This document shows, piece by piece, positions 27,873-32,362 of a DNA stretch of 32,486 bases. Below the pieces are notes generated by a model. That model worked only from the letters and a program-made list of their open reading frames with translations. It did not search any database and was not told where the DNA came from. Location of the stretch: contig JAGBND010000072.1 of the NCBI GenBank assembly GCA_017634575.1, positions 1 through 32,486 on the forward strand, written 5' to 3'. Both the position numbers and the translations under genes were made by a program. Numbering within the stretch: position 1 is the stretch's first letter; each line of letters opens with the position of its first letter. This stretch comes from Bacillota bacterium. GTDB taxonomy: Bacteria > Bacillota > Clostridia > Lachnospirales > Bianqueaceae.

Positions 27873-28245
27873 GAACTTCGGATTTATCTGCTCTTTAGAA
27901 AAACAGAGTCGCACTTTTACATGTAAACTATATTTTTATATACAATTTATTTCTTTTTATTTTTATTCGATTCTATCGAATAAAAACTCAAATTGTTCAT
28001 CTTGGAATATGTCGGACATTTTGATTTTGGAAGACACAGCAGATCAAGGTGAAAATGTTCATCTGAAATTGGTTGTTTGTCGTGATTTGGATTTTCAAAA
28101 TGTTCATCTATATTATACATCATGAAGCCGAGATGCGTCTGTAGTCGTATTGTAATTGCTACAGACAAACAACTGGCGTGATCTCCTAATACATTATTGC
28201 AATGACGCGATGAATGGAAGTAAAAGCCATATGACAATCAAACAG
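27873..28245. other. AT-rich gene-free spacer with IS-end-like repeats
   Basis: Between the DUF5721-like gene and the surface-protein terminator no convincing gene is seen. It holds three copies of AAAWTGTTCATCT (27990, 28052, 28097), a segment at 27989-28029 that resembles 32320-32365 next to the right-edge array, and an 8-bp inverted repeat GTCTGTAG/CTACAGAC (28137-28144 and 28159-28166). A 96-codon minus-strand frame covers part of it, but it is low-complexity, has no ribosome site and reads through the repeats. The pattern suggests the remnant of a mobile-element end. Confidence 0.5.
27899..27923. repeat. left copy of a 25-bp direct repeat bracketing the accessory segment
   Basis: AAACAGAGTCGCACTTTTAC plus ATG at 27901-27923 matches 32271-32293 with two mismatches, in the same orientation and 4370 bases apart. 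In the right copy the sequence forms a terminator hairpin (GTCGCA/TGCGAC); here the right arm has drifted, but a palindrome TTTACATGTAAA remains. Confidence 0.75.
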
Positions 28246-28316: not shown

Positions 28317-31300
28317 TTAATCTATCCTTTTCTTTCTGGCCTTTACCACCGCGCCGATTCCAATCACAGAAAGACACAGCAGGCTGATCCACAATTCCGG
28401 ATGATTGTTGTCACCTGTATTGACCCCATTCTGAGGCTTATTACTTTCAGCCGGTTTTGCTTGTATCGTGATTTTTTTCTCCACCGGATCGCCATCATCG
28501 AACAGGACTGTGACTGTATGTTCCCCTACGCTGAGCGTTTCCAGTGTTTCTGCGTTGATCGTAATGATCGTGCTACCCGGCTCTGCAGATACTTCCATGT
28601 CTTTTTCATCGATCTGTACCTTAACAAAATGGTTGAAGCATTCTTCATCATTTTCACTTCGTTTAATTATCATCACGATAGGATCCGAGGAACCCTTCGT
28701 CCAATTGCCTTCAGAAGTCTGGGTTTCGGTGTAAAATATCCATTTTTTTACTGTGGTATACACTGATATATAGACAGTGTCACCGGTTACTGGAGGTAAG
28801 GATTCATTGTCATAGACTGTACCATCACCATCAACAGCTTTCCAGCCAGCAAAGGTATCAATTTTGTTAATACCATCGATCCTTGTTAGTATATTGCCTG
28901 TGTACTTTGGTGTCTCACCATAGGCATAATAAGATGCATTCATAGAAACTACATTTGGTGTTTCTATTCTAAACGCGATCGTATACATACGCTCTTCTTC
29001 TTTAAATAATACAGTATATGTTGCATCTCCTGTTACAAGAGGCAAAGAGGCTCCTTCACCGTAAACTGTACCATCACTGTCTTTCCAGCCTGCAAAGGTA
29101 TAGGTGTACTGAACTGTTGCTTCCTTGGTCGGTGCTGTACTTGTGTATTCCGGTGTTGCACCATAGGCTACCTTACCGCTCTGTAGTTCCTTGCCCTCTT
29201 CATCTACGAATGTGATCGTATATTCTTTTGTTTGTTTGCTGTAGGTTGCTTTATAAGTTGCATCGCCTGTCACTTTTACGATCTCTTTATCCCAGCCTGC
29301 AAAGGTATAGGTGTACTGAGCATCAGCAGCCTTGGTCGGATCCGCATGAACCGGCATCTCCCCATACTCTACCTTCATCGTATCAATCAGTGACCCGTCT
29401 TCCTGAAGCCAGGTGATCGTATAGCTTTGTTTGCCGCTGGAATAGACAGCTGTATATACAACATTTGCGGTAACATCCTTGAGTTCCGGAGTCCACCCTG
29501 AGAATTCATATGTATACTCGTCATCCGAGGCTCTCACCGGATCTTTCGGCAGAACGATATCAGAAGCTTTTGTGCCGTAGTCGTAGGCGGTCGCTTCTTG
29601 AAGAACCGTCTTTCCGTCATAATCAAGGAAGGTCACAGTATATTGGTTCACTGTCTTGGTGTATGCGGCTGTATAGGTCTCGTCACCGCTTACCGCAGGC
29701 AAAGACTTACTTGCCTCGTAGATAGTGCCATCACTTGTTTCCCAGCCGGCAAATGTGTAAGTGACTTCAGCATCCGCTTCTTTGGTTGGCGTTTCGCCAT
29801 TATATTTTGGTGTATCACCATAAGCCAGCTTACCACTTTGCAGTTCTTTGCCTTCTTCATCTACGAATGTGATCGTATACTCATTAACCGTCTCGGAGAA
29901 GGATACCGTATAGGTTGCATCACCTCCTACAGCAGGCAAGGCGTCCTTTTCACCGTATACTTTACCGTCGCTGGCTTTCCATCCAAACGTATAGGTGTAC
30001 TGAGCATCCGGTTCTTTGCTGGGCGTCTCGCCATTATACTTCGGTATCTCGCCATAGGTTAATGTGTCTGCCTGCAATACCTTGCCTTCTTCATCCACGA
30101 ACCTGATCTCATATTCTCGTAACGTACCGGTGTAAGTCGCCGTATACGTTGTATCGCCTTTTACAGCAGGGAATGAGCCATTTTCACAAACAGGGCCGTT
30201 ACTCATTTGCCATCCGGCAAAAGTATATGTATACTGGACATCAGGCTCCTTGACAGGTGGATTTGGATTACCCTTGAACTCTGGTGTCGTGCCGTAGGTA
30301 AAAGTAGCACTGTCAAGTACTGTCCCATCGTCATCCAGGAATTTGACCTCATACTCACGTAACGTGCTGGTATAAGTCGCGGTATAGGTTGCTTCGCCTT
30401 TTACAGCAGGCAAGGAATCATTTTTACCATACACCTTACCGTCACTGGCTTCCCAGCCGGCAAAAGTATAGGTGTATTGGTTATCCGGCGCCTTGGTTGG
30501 TGTTTCCTTATTGTAGGTAGGAACAGCGTTATATTCAAAGGGATCATTCTGTAGGTTTGTTCCGTCAAAGTTTTGGAAATTGATTGCGTATTTGCGTACT
30601 TCTTCAGTGTATGTCGGTGTATAAATATAATAGTTAGGGGTATTCTCTTTCAGTTTCTCCTCCCACCCATCGAACTTATAGTTATACTGTTCGGTCGATG
30701 GTTTCTCTGGTCCATTTGGTATGGCATCCCTGTAATCTATATTTGAGGAACAGAAAATCGTACGAAGAATCTTGGAGCCATCGAAGTTTATAAATTCTCT
30801 TCTAGTGATTATGGGGAAAAAGGCATTCCCAAGAACTGCATCAACTGATCCATCGATGACCATCTTGAGATTTTCACTTTCCAAAAATGCATTCTCGCCA
30901 ATTGTACCAACATTACCATTAATCGTCACGGTCGTAAGTTTATCACAATCAAAGAATGCAGACTGGCCAATTGTACCAACATTACCATTAATCGTCACGG
31001 TCGTGAGGTTATCACAATAAATGAATGCAGACTCGCCAATTGAACCTACGCTACCTTCAATCGTCACGGTCGTGAGTTGAGGACAATCATAGAATGCATA
31101 CTTGCCAATTGTACCTACGCCACCTTCAATCGTCACGGTCGTGAGTTGAGGACAATCATAGAATGCATGATCGCCAATTGAATCAATACTTCCTTCGATT
31201 GTTACACTGGTGAAATCGGATTTGTAATATTCACCACCGCCAATGTCTTGCACTTTATTCTCGCCGGGTTCAGGAGAAAGCACAAGTTCCCCCTCATCGG

Positions 31301-31373
31301 CAAAAACCTTCGTCGGTAATAACAAAAGAAGCAGCATGACAGAAAGCAAAAGGCTTAATGATGTCTTTTTCAT
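28317..31373 (-). CDS. secreted BspA-like leucine-rich-repeat / multi-repeat cell-surface protein
   Basis: A 1018-residue surface protein. Signal peptide 1-25 (MKKTSLSLLLSVMLL, cleaved after VFA). Residues 57-171 are five exact-length 23-residue BspA-type LRR units (VTIEGSVGSIGESAFIYCDN pattern), with a partial sixth. About 172-259 is a divergent linking repeat (NYKFDGWEE). About 260-875 are eight 67-82-residue InlB-B/Flg_new-type units, each built as YTITFVDEEG...YTYTFAGW...ATYTATY. An Ig-like part (about 880-970) follows. The end NGVNTGDNNHPELW, a 17-residue hydrophobic stretch and KARKKRID form a cell-wall sorting signal with an unusual, non-LPXTG motif. Such proteins bind host or bacterial surfaces. 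ATG at 31373 with GGGGAGG; own promoter and terminator. Base composition is lower in GC than the housekeeping genes, suggesting accessory origin. Confidence 0.92.
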   Translation of the reverse strand: MKKTSLSLLLSVMLLLLLLPTKVFADEGELVLSPEPGENKVQDIGGGEYYKSDFTSVTIEGSIDSIGDHAFYDCPQLTTVTIEGGVGTIGKYAFYDCPQLTTVTIEGSVGSIGESAFIYCDNLTTVTINGNVGTIGQSAFFDCDKLTTVTINGNVGTIGENAFLESENLKMVIDGSVDAVLGNAFFPIITRREFINFDGSKILRTIFCSSNIDYRDAIPNGPEKPSTEQYNYKFDGWEEKLKENTPNYYIYTPTYTEEVRKYAINFQNFDGTNLQNDPFEYNAVPTYNKETPTKAPDNQYTYTFAGWEASDGKVYGKNDSLPAVKGEATYTATYTSTLREYEVKFLDDDGTVLDSATFTYGTTPEFKGNPNPPVKEPDVQYTYTFAGWQMSNGPVCENGSFPAVKGDTTYTATYTGTLREYEIRFVDEEGKVLQADTLTYGEIPKYNGETPSKEPDAQYTYTFGWKASDGKVYGEKDALPAVGGDATYTVSFSETVNEYTITFVDEEGKELQSGKLAYGDTPKYNGETPTKEADAEVTYTFAGWETSDGTIYEASKSLPAVSGDETYTAAYTKTVNQYTVTFLDYDGKTVLQEATAYDYGTKASDIVLPKDPVRASDDEYTYEFSGWTPELKDVTANVVYTAVYSSGKQSYTITWLQEDGSLIDTMKVEYGEMPVHADPTKAADAQYTYTFAGWDKEIVKVTGDATYKATYSKQTKEYTITFVDEEGKELQSGKVAYGATPEYTSTAPTKEATVQYTYTFAGWKDSDGTVYGEGASLPLVTGDATYTVLFKEEERMYTIAFRIETPNVVSMNASYYAYGETPKYTGNILTRIDGINKIDTFAGWKAVDGDGTVYDNESLPPVTGDTVYISVYTTVKKWIFYTETQTSEGNWTKGSSDPIVMIIKRSENDEECFNHFVKVQIDEKDMEVSAEPGSTIITINAETLETLSVGEHTVTVLFDDGDPVEKKITIQAKPAESNKPQNGVNTGDNNHPELWISLLCLSVIGIGAVVKARKKRID
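30861..31205 (-). repeat. five 69-bp LRR-coding tandem repeats
   Basis: Codons 57-171 of the surface protein: five consecutive 69-base units, the second pair (AFYDCPQLTT) and fourth/fifth pair (VTINGNVGTIG) being nearly identical at DNA level. This indicates recent unit duplication. Confidence 0.9.
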
Positions 31374-31485: not shown

Positions 31486-31529
31486 AACAAAAAAGTGGCA
31501 AATCTGAGATTTGATTCTCGATCTGCCAC
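31486..31529 (-). terminator. minus-strand terminator upstream of the surface-protein promoter
   Basis: On the minus strand GTGGCAGATC (31529 side) pairs with GATTTGCCAC (31495 side), allowing one G-U, followed by TTTTTTGTTTTG. It contains an inner palindrome AAATCTGAGATTT. No minus-strand gene feeding into it was found. Confidence 0.7.
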
Positions 31530-31549
31530 CTCATCATATACCGCACGAT

Positions 31550-32110
31550 ATGAAAGCTTATTTGTCGGTTTTGCTATATCCATATCCTGTCAAAGATCGC
31601 AAGGTTGGAGACGATTCTTGTCCGTATTGTGCAGGGAAAAAAATACTTACAGGCTTCAATGACCTGCAAACAGTCAACCCACAGCTCGCCAAAGAGTGGA
31701 GCCCAAACAACGAGTTTTCTGCCAGCAGGGCTCTTCCAACTTTATTACGCACTGCTCTATGGATTTGCCCTGATTGTAATGGCGAGTATCCCTATCCTGT
31801 CAAAGATCGCAAGGTTGGAGATGACTCTTGTCCGTATTGTGCAGGGAAAAAAATACTTAAGGGGTACAACGATCTTCAAACAACCCATCCTGAATTGATG
31901 TGCGAATGGTCTGAAATTGACAATGCCTTACAAAATTTCTGGCCGGATGAAATAACAGAACATTCCTCAATTTCGGTTTGGTGGGTATGCAAGGACTGCG
32001 GATACAAATATAAGATGAGCCCAAGAGATAAACTCATCTATGCTATGCGGCATCAAATTAGCTGTAGCAGGTGTAAAGGCCGTCGTCGGAATAAGGTATA
32101 TATCGGCTGA
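31550..32110 (+). pseudogene. remnant of a zinc-ribbon repeat protein (DUF4379/treble-clef type)
   Basis: The frame ending at 32110 encodes repeated zinc ribbons of the W-x-C-x2-C ... R ... CPYC kind: CPYCAGKKIL (first), WICPDCNGEYPYPVKDR with CPYCAGKKILKGYNDLQ (second), and WWVCKDCGYKYKMSPRDKL with ISCSRCKGRRR (third). It looks decayed at the 5' end. No ribosome site precedes the ATG at 31550 (or an in-frame ATG at 31511), and the first ribbon lacks its leading cysteine pair in frame. An ICRFC is visible in the +1 frame at 31565-31579; compared with the second ribbon about seven bases are missing just after it. Homologues are usually longer multi-ribbon proteins, often in accessory islands; their function is unclear. 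Confidence 0.6.
31583..31859 (+). repeat. 67-bp direct repeat inside the zinc-ribbon remnant
   Basis: 31583-31649 and 31793-31859 are 67-base copies with two mismatches, 210 bases (70 codons) apart. Both encode the YPVKDRKVGDDSCPYCAGKK segment. This is a recent internal duplication or conversion of a ribbon unit. Confidence 0.9.
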
Positions 32111-32123
32111 TACTCTCCTCTCA

Positions 32124-32188
32124 AAACACAGTCCACACCATTCCTGTTGAAAAAAATATGCATGTAGGGTATACTGTAGACTGTGTTT
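32124..32188. repeat. 10-bp inverted repeat enclosing the small-RNA promoter
   Basis: AAACACAGTC (32124-32133) and GACTGTGTTT (32179-32188) are exact complements flanking the -35 and -10 elements. They could be an operator pair or short terminal repeats. Confidence 0.7.
32147..32175 (+). promoter_or_regulatory. promoter of a candidate small RNA
   Basis: TTGAAA (32147-32152), exactly 17 bases, TATACT (32170-32175). Expected start near 32182. No open reading frame with a ribosome site follows before the terminator at 32235-32265. Confidence 0.78.
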
Positions 32189-32266
32189 GAAGTGGTGATT
32201 CCCCACCACAATCCAAAAGCAGGGATTTTTATTCAGAGGTGGCTGATCCAGTCACCTCTTTTTTTG
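32182..32266 (+). ncRNA. candidate small RNA, about 85 nt
   Basis: Sequence between a consensus promoter and a Rho-independent terminator with no coding capacity. It can fold into three stems: GTGGTG/CACCAC (32192-32197 and 32204-32209), AATCC/GGATT (starting about 32210 and 32222), and the terminator stem AGAGGTG/CACCTCT. The GGTG of the first stem could also pair with the CACC of the terminator, so alternative folds are possible. No known RNA family is recognised. Confidence 0.55.
32235..32266 (+). terminator. plus-strand terminator of the candidate small RNA
   Basis: Stem AGAGGTG (32235-32241) and CACCTCT (32253-32259) with an 11-base loop, followed by T at 32259-32265. It faces, across GTC, the A-run that is the U-tract of the minus-strand terminator. 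Confidence 0.85.
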
Positions 32267-32297
32267 TCAAAAAAAGAGTCGCACTTTAACATGCGAC
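32267..32297 (-). terminator. minus-strand terminator, convergent with the previous one
   Basis: Stem GTCGCA (32278-32283) and TGCGAC (32292-32297), loop of eight; on the minus strand it is followed by TC and seven T (32275-32269). It should end transcripts arriving from beyond the right edge. Its sequence is the right copy of the direct repeat at 27899-27923. Confidence 0.8.
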
Positions 32298-32319
32298 CCT
32301 GATTTTTGAATCAGTTTCT

Positions 32320-32358
32320 CAAAATGTTCATCTTTTTGTGATTAACATGAACATTTTG
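32320..32358. repeat. 12-bp perfect inverted repeat
   Basis: CAAAATGTTCAT (32320-32331) and ATGAACATTTTG (32347-32358) with a 15-base loop. The same CAAAATGTTCATCT motif recurs three times at 27989-28109 on the other side of the accessory segment. Confidence 0.85.
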
Positions 32359-32362
32359 AATT

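Follow-up and report, generated by a model that had tools for sequence, protein, structure and literature searches.

A putative small RNA gene at one end of a species-specific insertion in a Clostridia genome

The window (the whole stretch of DNA that was analysed, 32,486 nt) contains a 4.3-kb species-specific insertion, which was located by synteny in a convergent intergenic region at approximately 27.9 to 32.5 kb. The insertion is flanked on one side by a DUF5721 gene and on the other by a CAP-protein gene in convergent orientation. It contains an LRR-type surface protein gene, a 96-codon frame with no Pfam match, a DUF4379 remnant and, at its right edge, a short unit in which a promoter-like site is followed by a terminator. 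The features of the region are as follows.

27899-27948 (+): left direct repeat GAGTCGCACTTTTACATG, insertion boundary
28317-31373 (-): LRR-type surface protein gene, 1018 residues, BspA-type LRR start
31511-32110 (+): 5'-truncated DUF4379 (treble-clef zinc finger) frame, Pfam match 6.6e-21, with a 210-bp tandem duplication
32124-32133 (+): left arm AAACACAGTC of a perfect 10-bp inverted repeat; wider imperfect arm 32114-32144
32147-32175 (+): sigma-70-like promoter, TTGAAA-17-TATACT
32179-32188 (-): right arm, exact complement of AAACACAGTC, covering the predicted start site; wider imperfect arm 32168-32198
32182-32266 (+): predicted RNA, 85 nt, three hairpins, no Rfam match and no homologue found
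32192-32209 (+): hairpin 1 of the predicted fold, 6 bp, C-rich loop AUUCCC
32210-32227 (+): hairpin 2 of the predicted fold, 5 bp, weak
32235-32266 (+): strong intrinsic terminator, 11-pair stem (32235-32259), then T run
32269-32317 (+): right direct repeat GAGTCGCACTTTAACATG
32275-32300 (-): opposed terminator, probably of the convergent CAP-protein gene past the contig end
32319-32486 (no strand assigned): repeat array CAAAATGTTCATCT / CAAAATGTACGTTTTT / TTTCTGGTTTAYT, 56-bp period

The contig end of the window and a second contig, C150, share an exact end overlap of 28 bp. The last gene of C150 is directed back toward the window and encodes what we take, from its sequence, to be a CAP-domain-like secreted protein. 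Three genus relatives carry the DUF5721 gene followed by a CAP gene in the opposite direction, and the insert is absent from all three. The two genes directly adjoin in G006 (a single terminator hairpin lies in the approximately 95 bp between them) and are separated by one extra gene in G001 and G002. This gene order supports the joint with C150 and shows that the insertion is species-specific. The boundary direct repeats of approximately 50 bp are 76% identical to each other, and the right one begins a few bases after the T run of the predicted RNA. The 18-bp repeat core GAGTCGCACTTTNACATG was found as an exact match only at the two insertion edges in the genome, and short AAAATGTTCATC-type repeats follow each edge. 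The array reaches the contig end and continues into C150, and motifs related to it recur near 27990-28110, including 28052 and 28097. The first-pass annotation had noted a mobile-element-like repeat array at this place; this array was confirmed, and it marks where the insertion borders on its surroundings. Motif searches of viral contigs for an IS-family origin of the array gave no informative relatives.

The surface protein comprises many repeats of approximately 70 residues, presumably of the Listeria-Bacteroides type as judged from the sequence, and has a hydrophobic anchor at its C-terminus. Upstream of its gene, on the minus strand, a hairpin (GTGGCAAATC...GATCTGCCAC, 31494-31535) is followed by a T run. 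The stem of this hairpin resembles the terminator stem at 32235-32259 (16 nt, 88% complementary). The DUF4379 frame had been described as a decayed zinc-ribbon gene, and this holds, as its first repeat lacks its start and begins mid-repeat ('YPYPVKDRKVG') behind unrelated sequence. No ribosome site was visible before either possible start. No copy was found in the genus relatives, and a second weak match to the gene in its own genome (30% identity) was to an unrelated zinc-ribbon-like protein. The frame includes an in-frame tandem duplication of 210 bp (31577-31882), which looks fairly recent, though the gene is truncated, because its 96-nt core is 90% identical.

The promoter of the unit matches the consensus at 10 of 12 positions and has no extended -10. 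The site had been called a textbook promoter. It is present, but the description was overstated, since sites with at least 9 of 12 matches are common (10 in 3.5 kb compared to 6.9 in shuffles). A 10/12 promoter arose in 55 of 5000 shuffles of 32111-32234, a chance of approximately 1% for the stretch. The Rho-independent terminator reported downstream was confirmed as an 11-pair stem with a T run, 59 nt from the promoter and on the same strand. Only one frame spans the unit, 39 codons long with a GTG start (32183-32302). It passes through the terminator and has neither a Pfam match nor a visible ribosome site, in agreement with the earlier statement that no frame lies between promoter and terminator.

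The frequency of such units was determined in stretches covering approximately one third of the genome (881 kb including the window). A unit was defined as a promoter of at least 10/12 with a strong terminator within 300 nt and no frame of at least 80 codons between them. Four units were found in the 881 kb. The chance expectation was 0.375 units when the frame-free stretch upstream of each terminator was shuffled. Of the other three units, two are tRNA-Leu genes and the third codes for a ferredoxin-like protein of approximately 56 residues; one tRNA-Leu was confirmed by Rfam, and the second tRNA-Leu and the ferredoxin-like gene were recognised from sequence. The rule is cheap to apply and marked genuine short genes in all three checkable cases. 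The signature is thus a sign of genuine short genes in this genome, but a lone unexplained unit is no proof because 0.375 false units are expected. As four units were found where approximately 0.4 would arise by chance, and three of them are genuine genes, a genuine transcript of 80-90 nt is somewhat more probable than not here.

The predicted RNA folds at -30.3 kcal/mol (z -4.2), and the computed fold agrees with the three stems proposed from the sequence. The significance of the fold derives mostly from the terminator, because 32182-32234 without the terminator hairpin gave a z of only -1.9, a weak value. The first-pass annotation had also suggested an alternative pairing of the first stem with the terminator stem. 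The best fold containing this pairing reached only -19.7 kcal/mol, so that the main fold is favoured by more than 10 kcal/mol and the pairing is implausible as a switch. An attenuator or riboswitch-like arrangement was rejected on the same energy difference and on the lack of a plus-strand gene downstream before the convergent CAP gene.

The promoter is bracketed by a perfect 10-bp inverted repeat as reported, the two arms being exact complements. They are separated by 45 bp (approximately 55 bp centre to centre) and form the best portion of a 31-nt imperfect inverted repeat of 74%. An equally good inverted repeat occurred in 35 of 2000 shuffles of the region, and 2 of the 217 promoter matches in the genome sample were bracketed by such a repeat. 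The arm AAACACAGTCNACA occurs exactly in these two places only, and its near-matches in the genome were no commoner than those of a reversed control pattern. Repressor control had been suggested, and the two arms could act as paired operator half-sites. No operator regulon was found, in that the same site was not seen at other promoters of the genome. The palindrome-framed unit had alternatively been taken for a mobile short unit, and this was not upheld: a second copy was absent from this genome and from the relatives searched.

The Rfam search proposed for the RNA returned no family over the candidate at either gathering or relaxed thresholds. The proposed BLASTN comparison likewise gave no homologue. 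Among 7 genomes of the genus the unit matched only itself, 19 genomes of the family gave no credible match, and samples of the order (392 genomes) and class (391 genomes) gave chance matches only. Most of the scattered short matches fell on the A-rich promoter stretch; the matches from the order that were inspected had no common structure in their flanks. A single-sequence covariance model was run on 295 genomes of the order; the matches inspected were mostly plain terminator-like hairpins, and none had this promoter and palindrome. No relative of the unit was found in plasmids and phages, and an exact-word scan of viral contigs gave nothing useful for it. An exact 17-mer scan of species genomes gave 17 matches compared to an estimated 30 or so expected by chance, none of them at a locus with a matching neighbourhood. 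Conservation with compensatory changes would support a small RNA gene and is not strictly required, as young small RNAs can lack it.

On balance the unit is best read as a short species-specific RNA gene, probably an ordinary one. The genome base rate lends partial support to the stand-alone RNA gene that the first-pass annotation had proposed, but no homologue of it was found in the genomes searched.

A less likely reading, though one to be taken seriously, takes the unit for the 3' UTR of the DUF4379 gene together with its terminator, which would have ended transcription of the gene before or after its truncation. Any small RNA would then be a by-product, and the promoter match and palindrome would be due to chance or, for the palindrome, to a 3'-UTR hairpin. 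The gene that ends closest upstream on this strand is DUF4379, whose stop codon (32110) precedes the terminator by 125 bp, and in a read-through RNA the palindrome would fold as a long hairpin. Promoter matches at the 9/12 level are common, as noted, but the 10/12 match is the one expected in only approximately 1% of shuffled stretches. Transcription of the DUF4379 frame is itself doubtful, as it is truncated at the 5' end without a visible ribosome site and lies directly behind an oppositely directed gene.

It is unlikely that the hairpins at 32114-32360 are a relic of the insertion boundary, that is, remains of mobile element ends with no RNA function. This reading draws on the six hairpins in succession, on the direct repeat and array adjoining the unit, whose motifs recur at the other insert edge, on the repeat core confined to both edges and on the absence of the insert from three relatives that share this gene order. 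However, no transposase or integrase match was found among the insert proteins searched, and the end of an element would not be expected to combine a promoter with a terminator. An inverton, in which recombination of the 10-bp inverted repeats flips the promoter, is very improbable: the promoter does lie within inverted repeats and near a surface-protein gene, but once flipped it would face the 3' end of DUF4379 and not a gene start, no recombinase was found among the proteins searched and 45 bp between arms is very short for recombination.

For the favoured reading, a small RNA gene, the analysis established the promoter and terminator signals with their base rate, the computed fold and the insertion; transcription and mode of action are inferred. 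The promoter at 32147-32175 would direct RNA polymerase to initiate near 32182, and termination at 32266 would yield a transcript of approximately 85 nt whose 3' end the terminator hairpin would protect. If the RNA is functional, its likeliest mode by analogy would be that of a Gram-positive trans-acting antisense RNA, with its free 5' tail and the AUUCCC loop of hairpin 1, which is C-rich, pairing with ribosome-binding sites. Several regulatory RNAs of Gram-positive bacteria that act by binding ribosome sites are marked by accessible UCCC motifs in their loops (PMC3861533), and a UCCC motif is present in the loop of hairpin 1. The ribosome site of the adjacent LRR gene appeared promising by eye as a target and was rejected, since cofolding ranked it approximately 430 of 758 start regions, which is not significant. 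The more elaborate proposal of a recent regulatory RNA at the edge of a surface-protein insertion, with a regulator bound to both inverted sites and the C-rich loop acting on ribosome sites, seems improbable as a whole. If transcribed, the unit would add another orphan small RNA to a little-studied lineage of Clostridia and would exemplify an RNA gene placed directly at the border of a young insertion.

Among known families, the best sub-threshold Rfam match in the region was sbrA (RF01489), with 27.5 bits compared to a gathering score of 45. This match covers 32269-32327 of the opposite strand, outside the candidate RNA, and the common feature is only a terminator-like hairpin. The candidate resembles the trans-acting small RNAs of Gram-positive bacteria, such as the Rsa RNAs of S. 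aureus and LhrC of L. monocytogenes, in being short, in having a promoter-like site and an intrinsic terminator and in its C-rich loop motif. It differs from them in being single-copy, without a homologue and predicted from sequence. With 3'-UTR-derived small RNAs it shares its position between a stop codon and a terminator, and some of these, e.g., MicX, use their own promoter (PMC9438474). In contrast to such RNAs, the candidate follows a gene that survives only as a truncated remnant, and the promoter is located downstream of the stop codon of this remnant.
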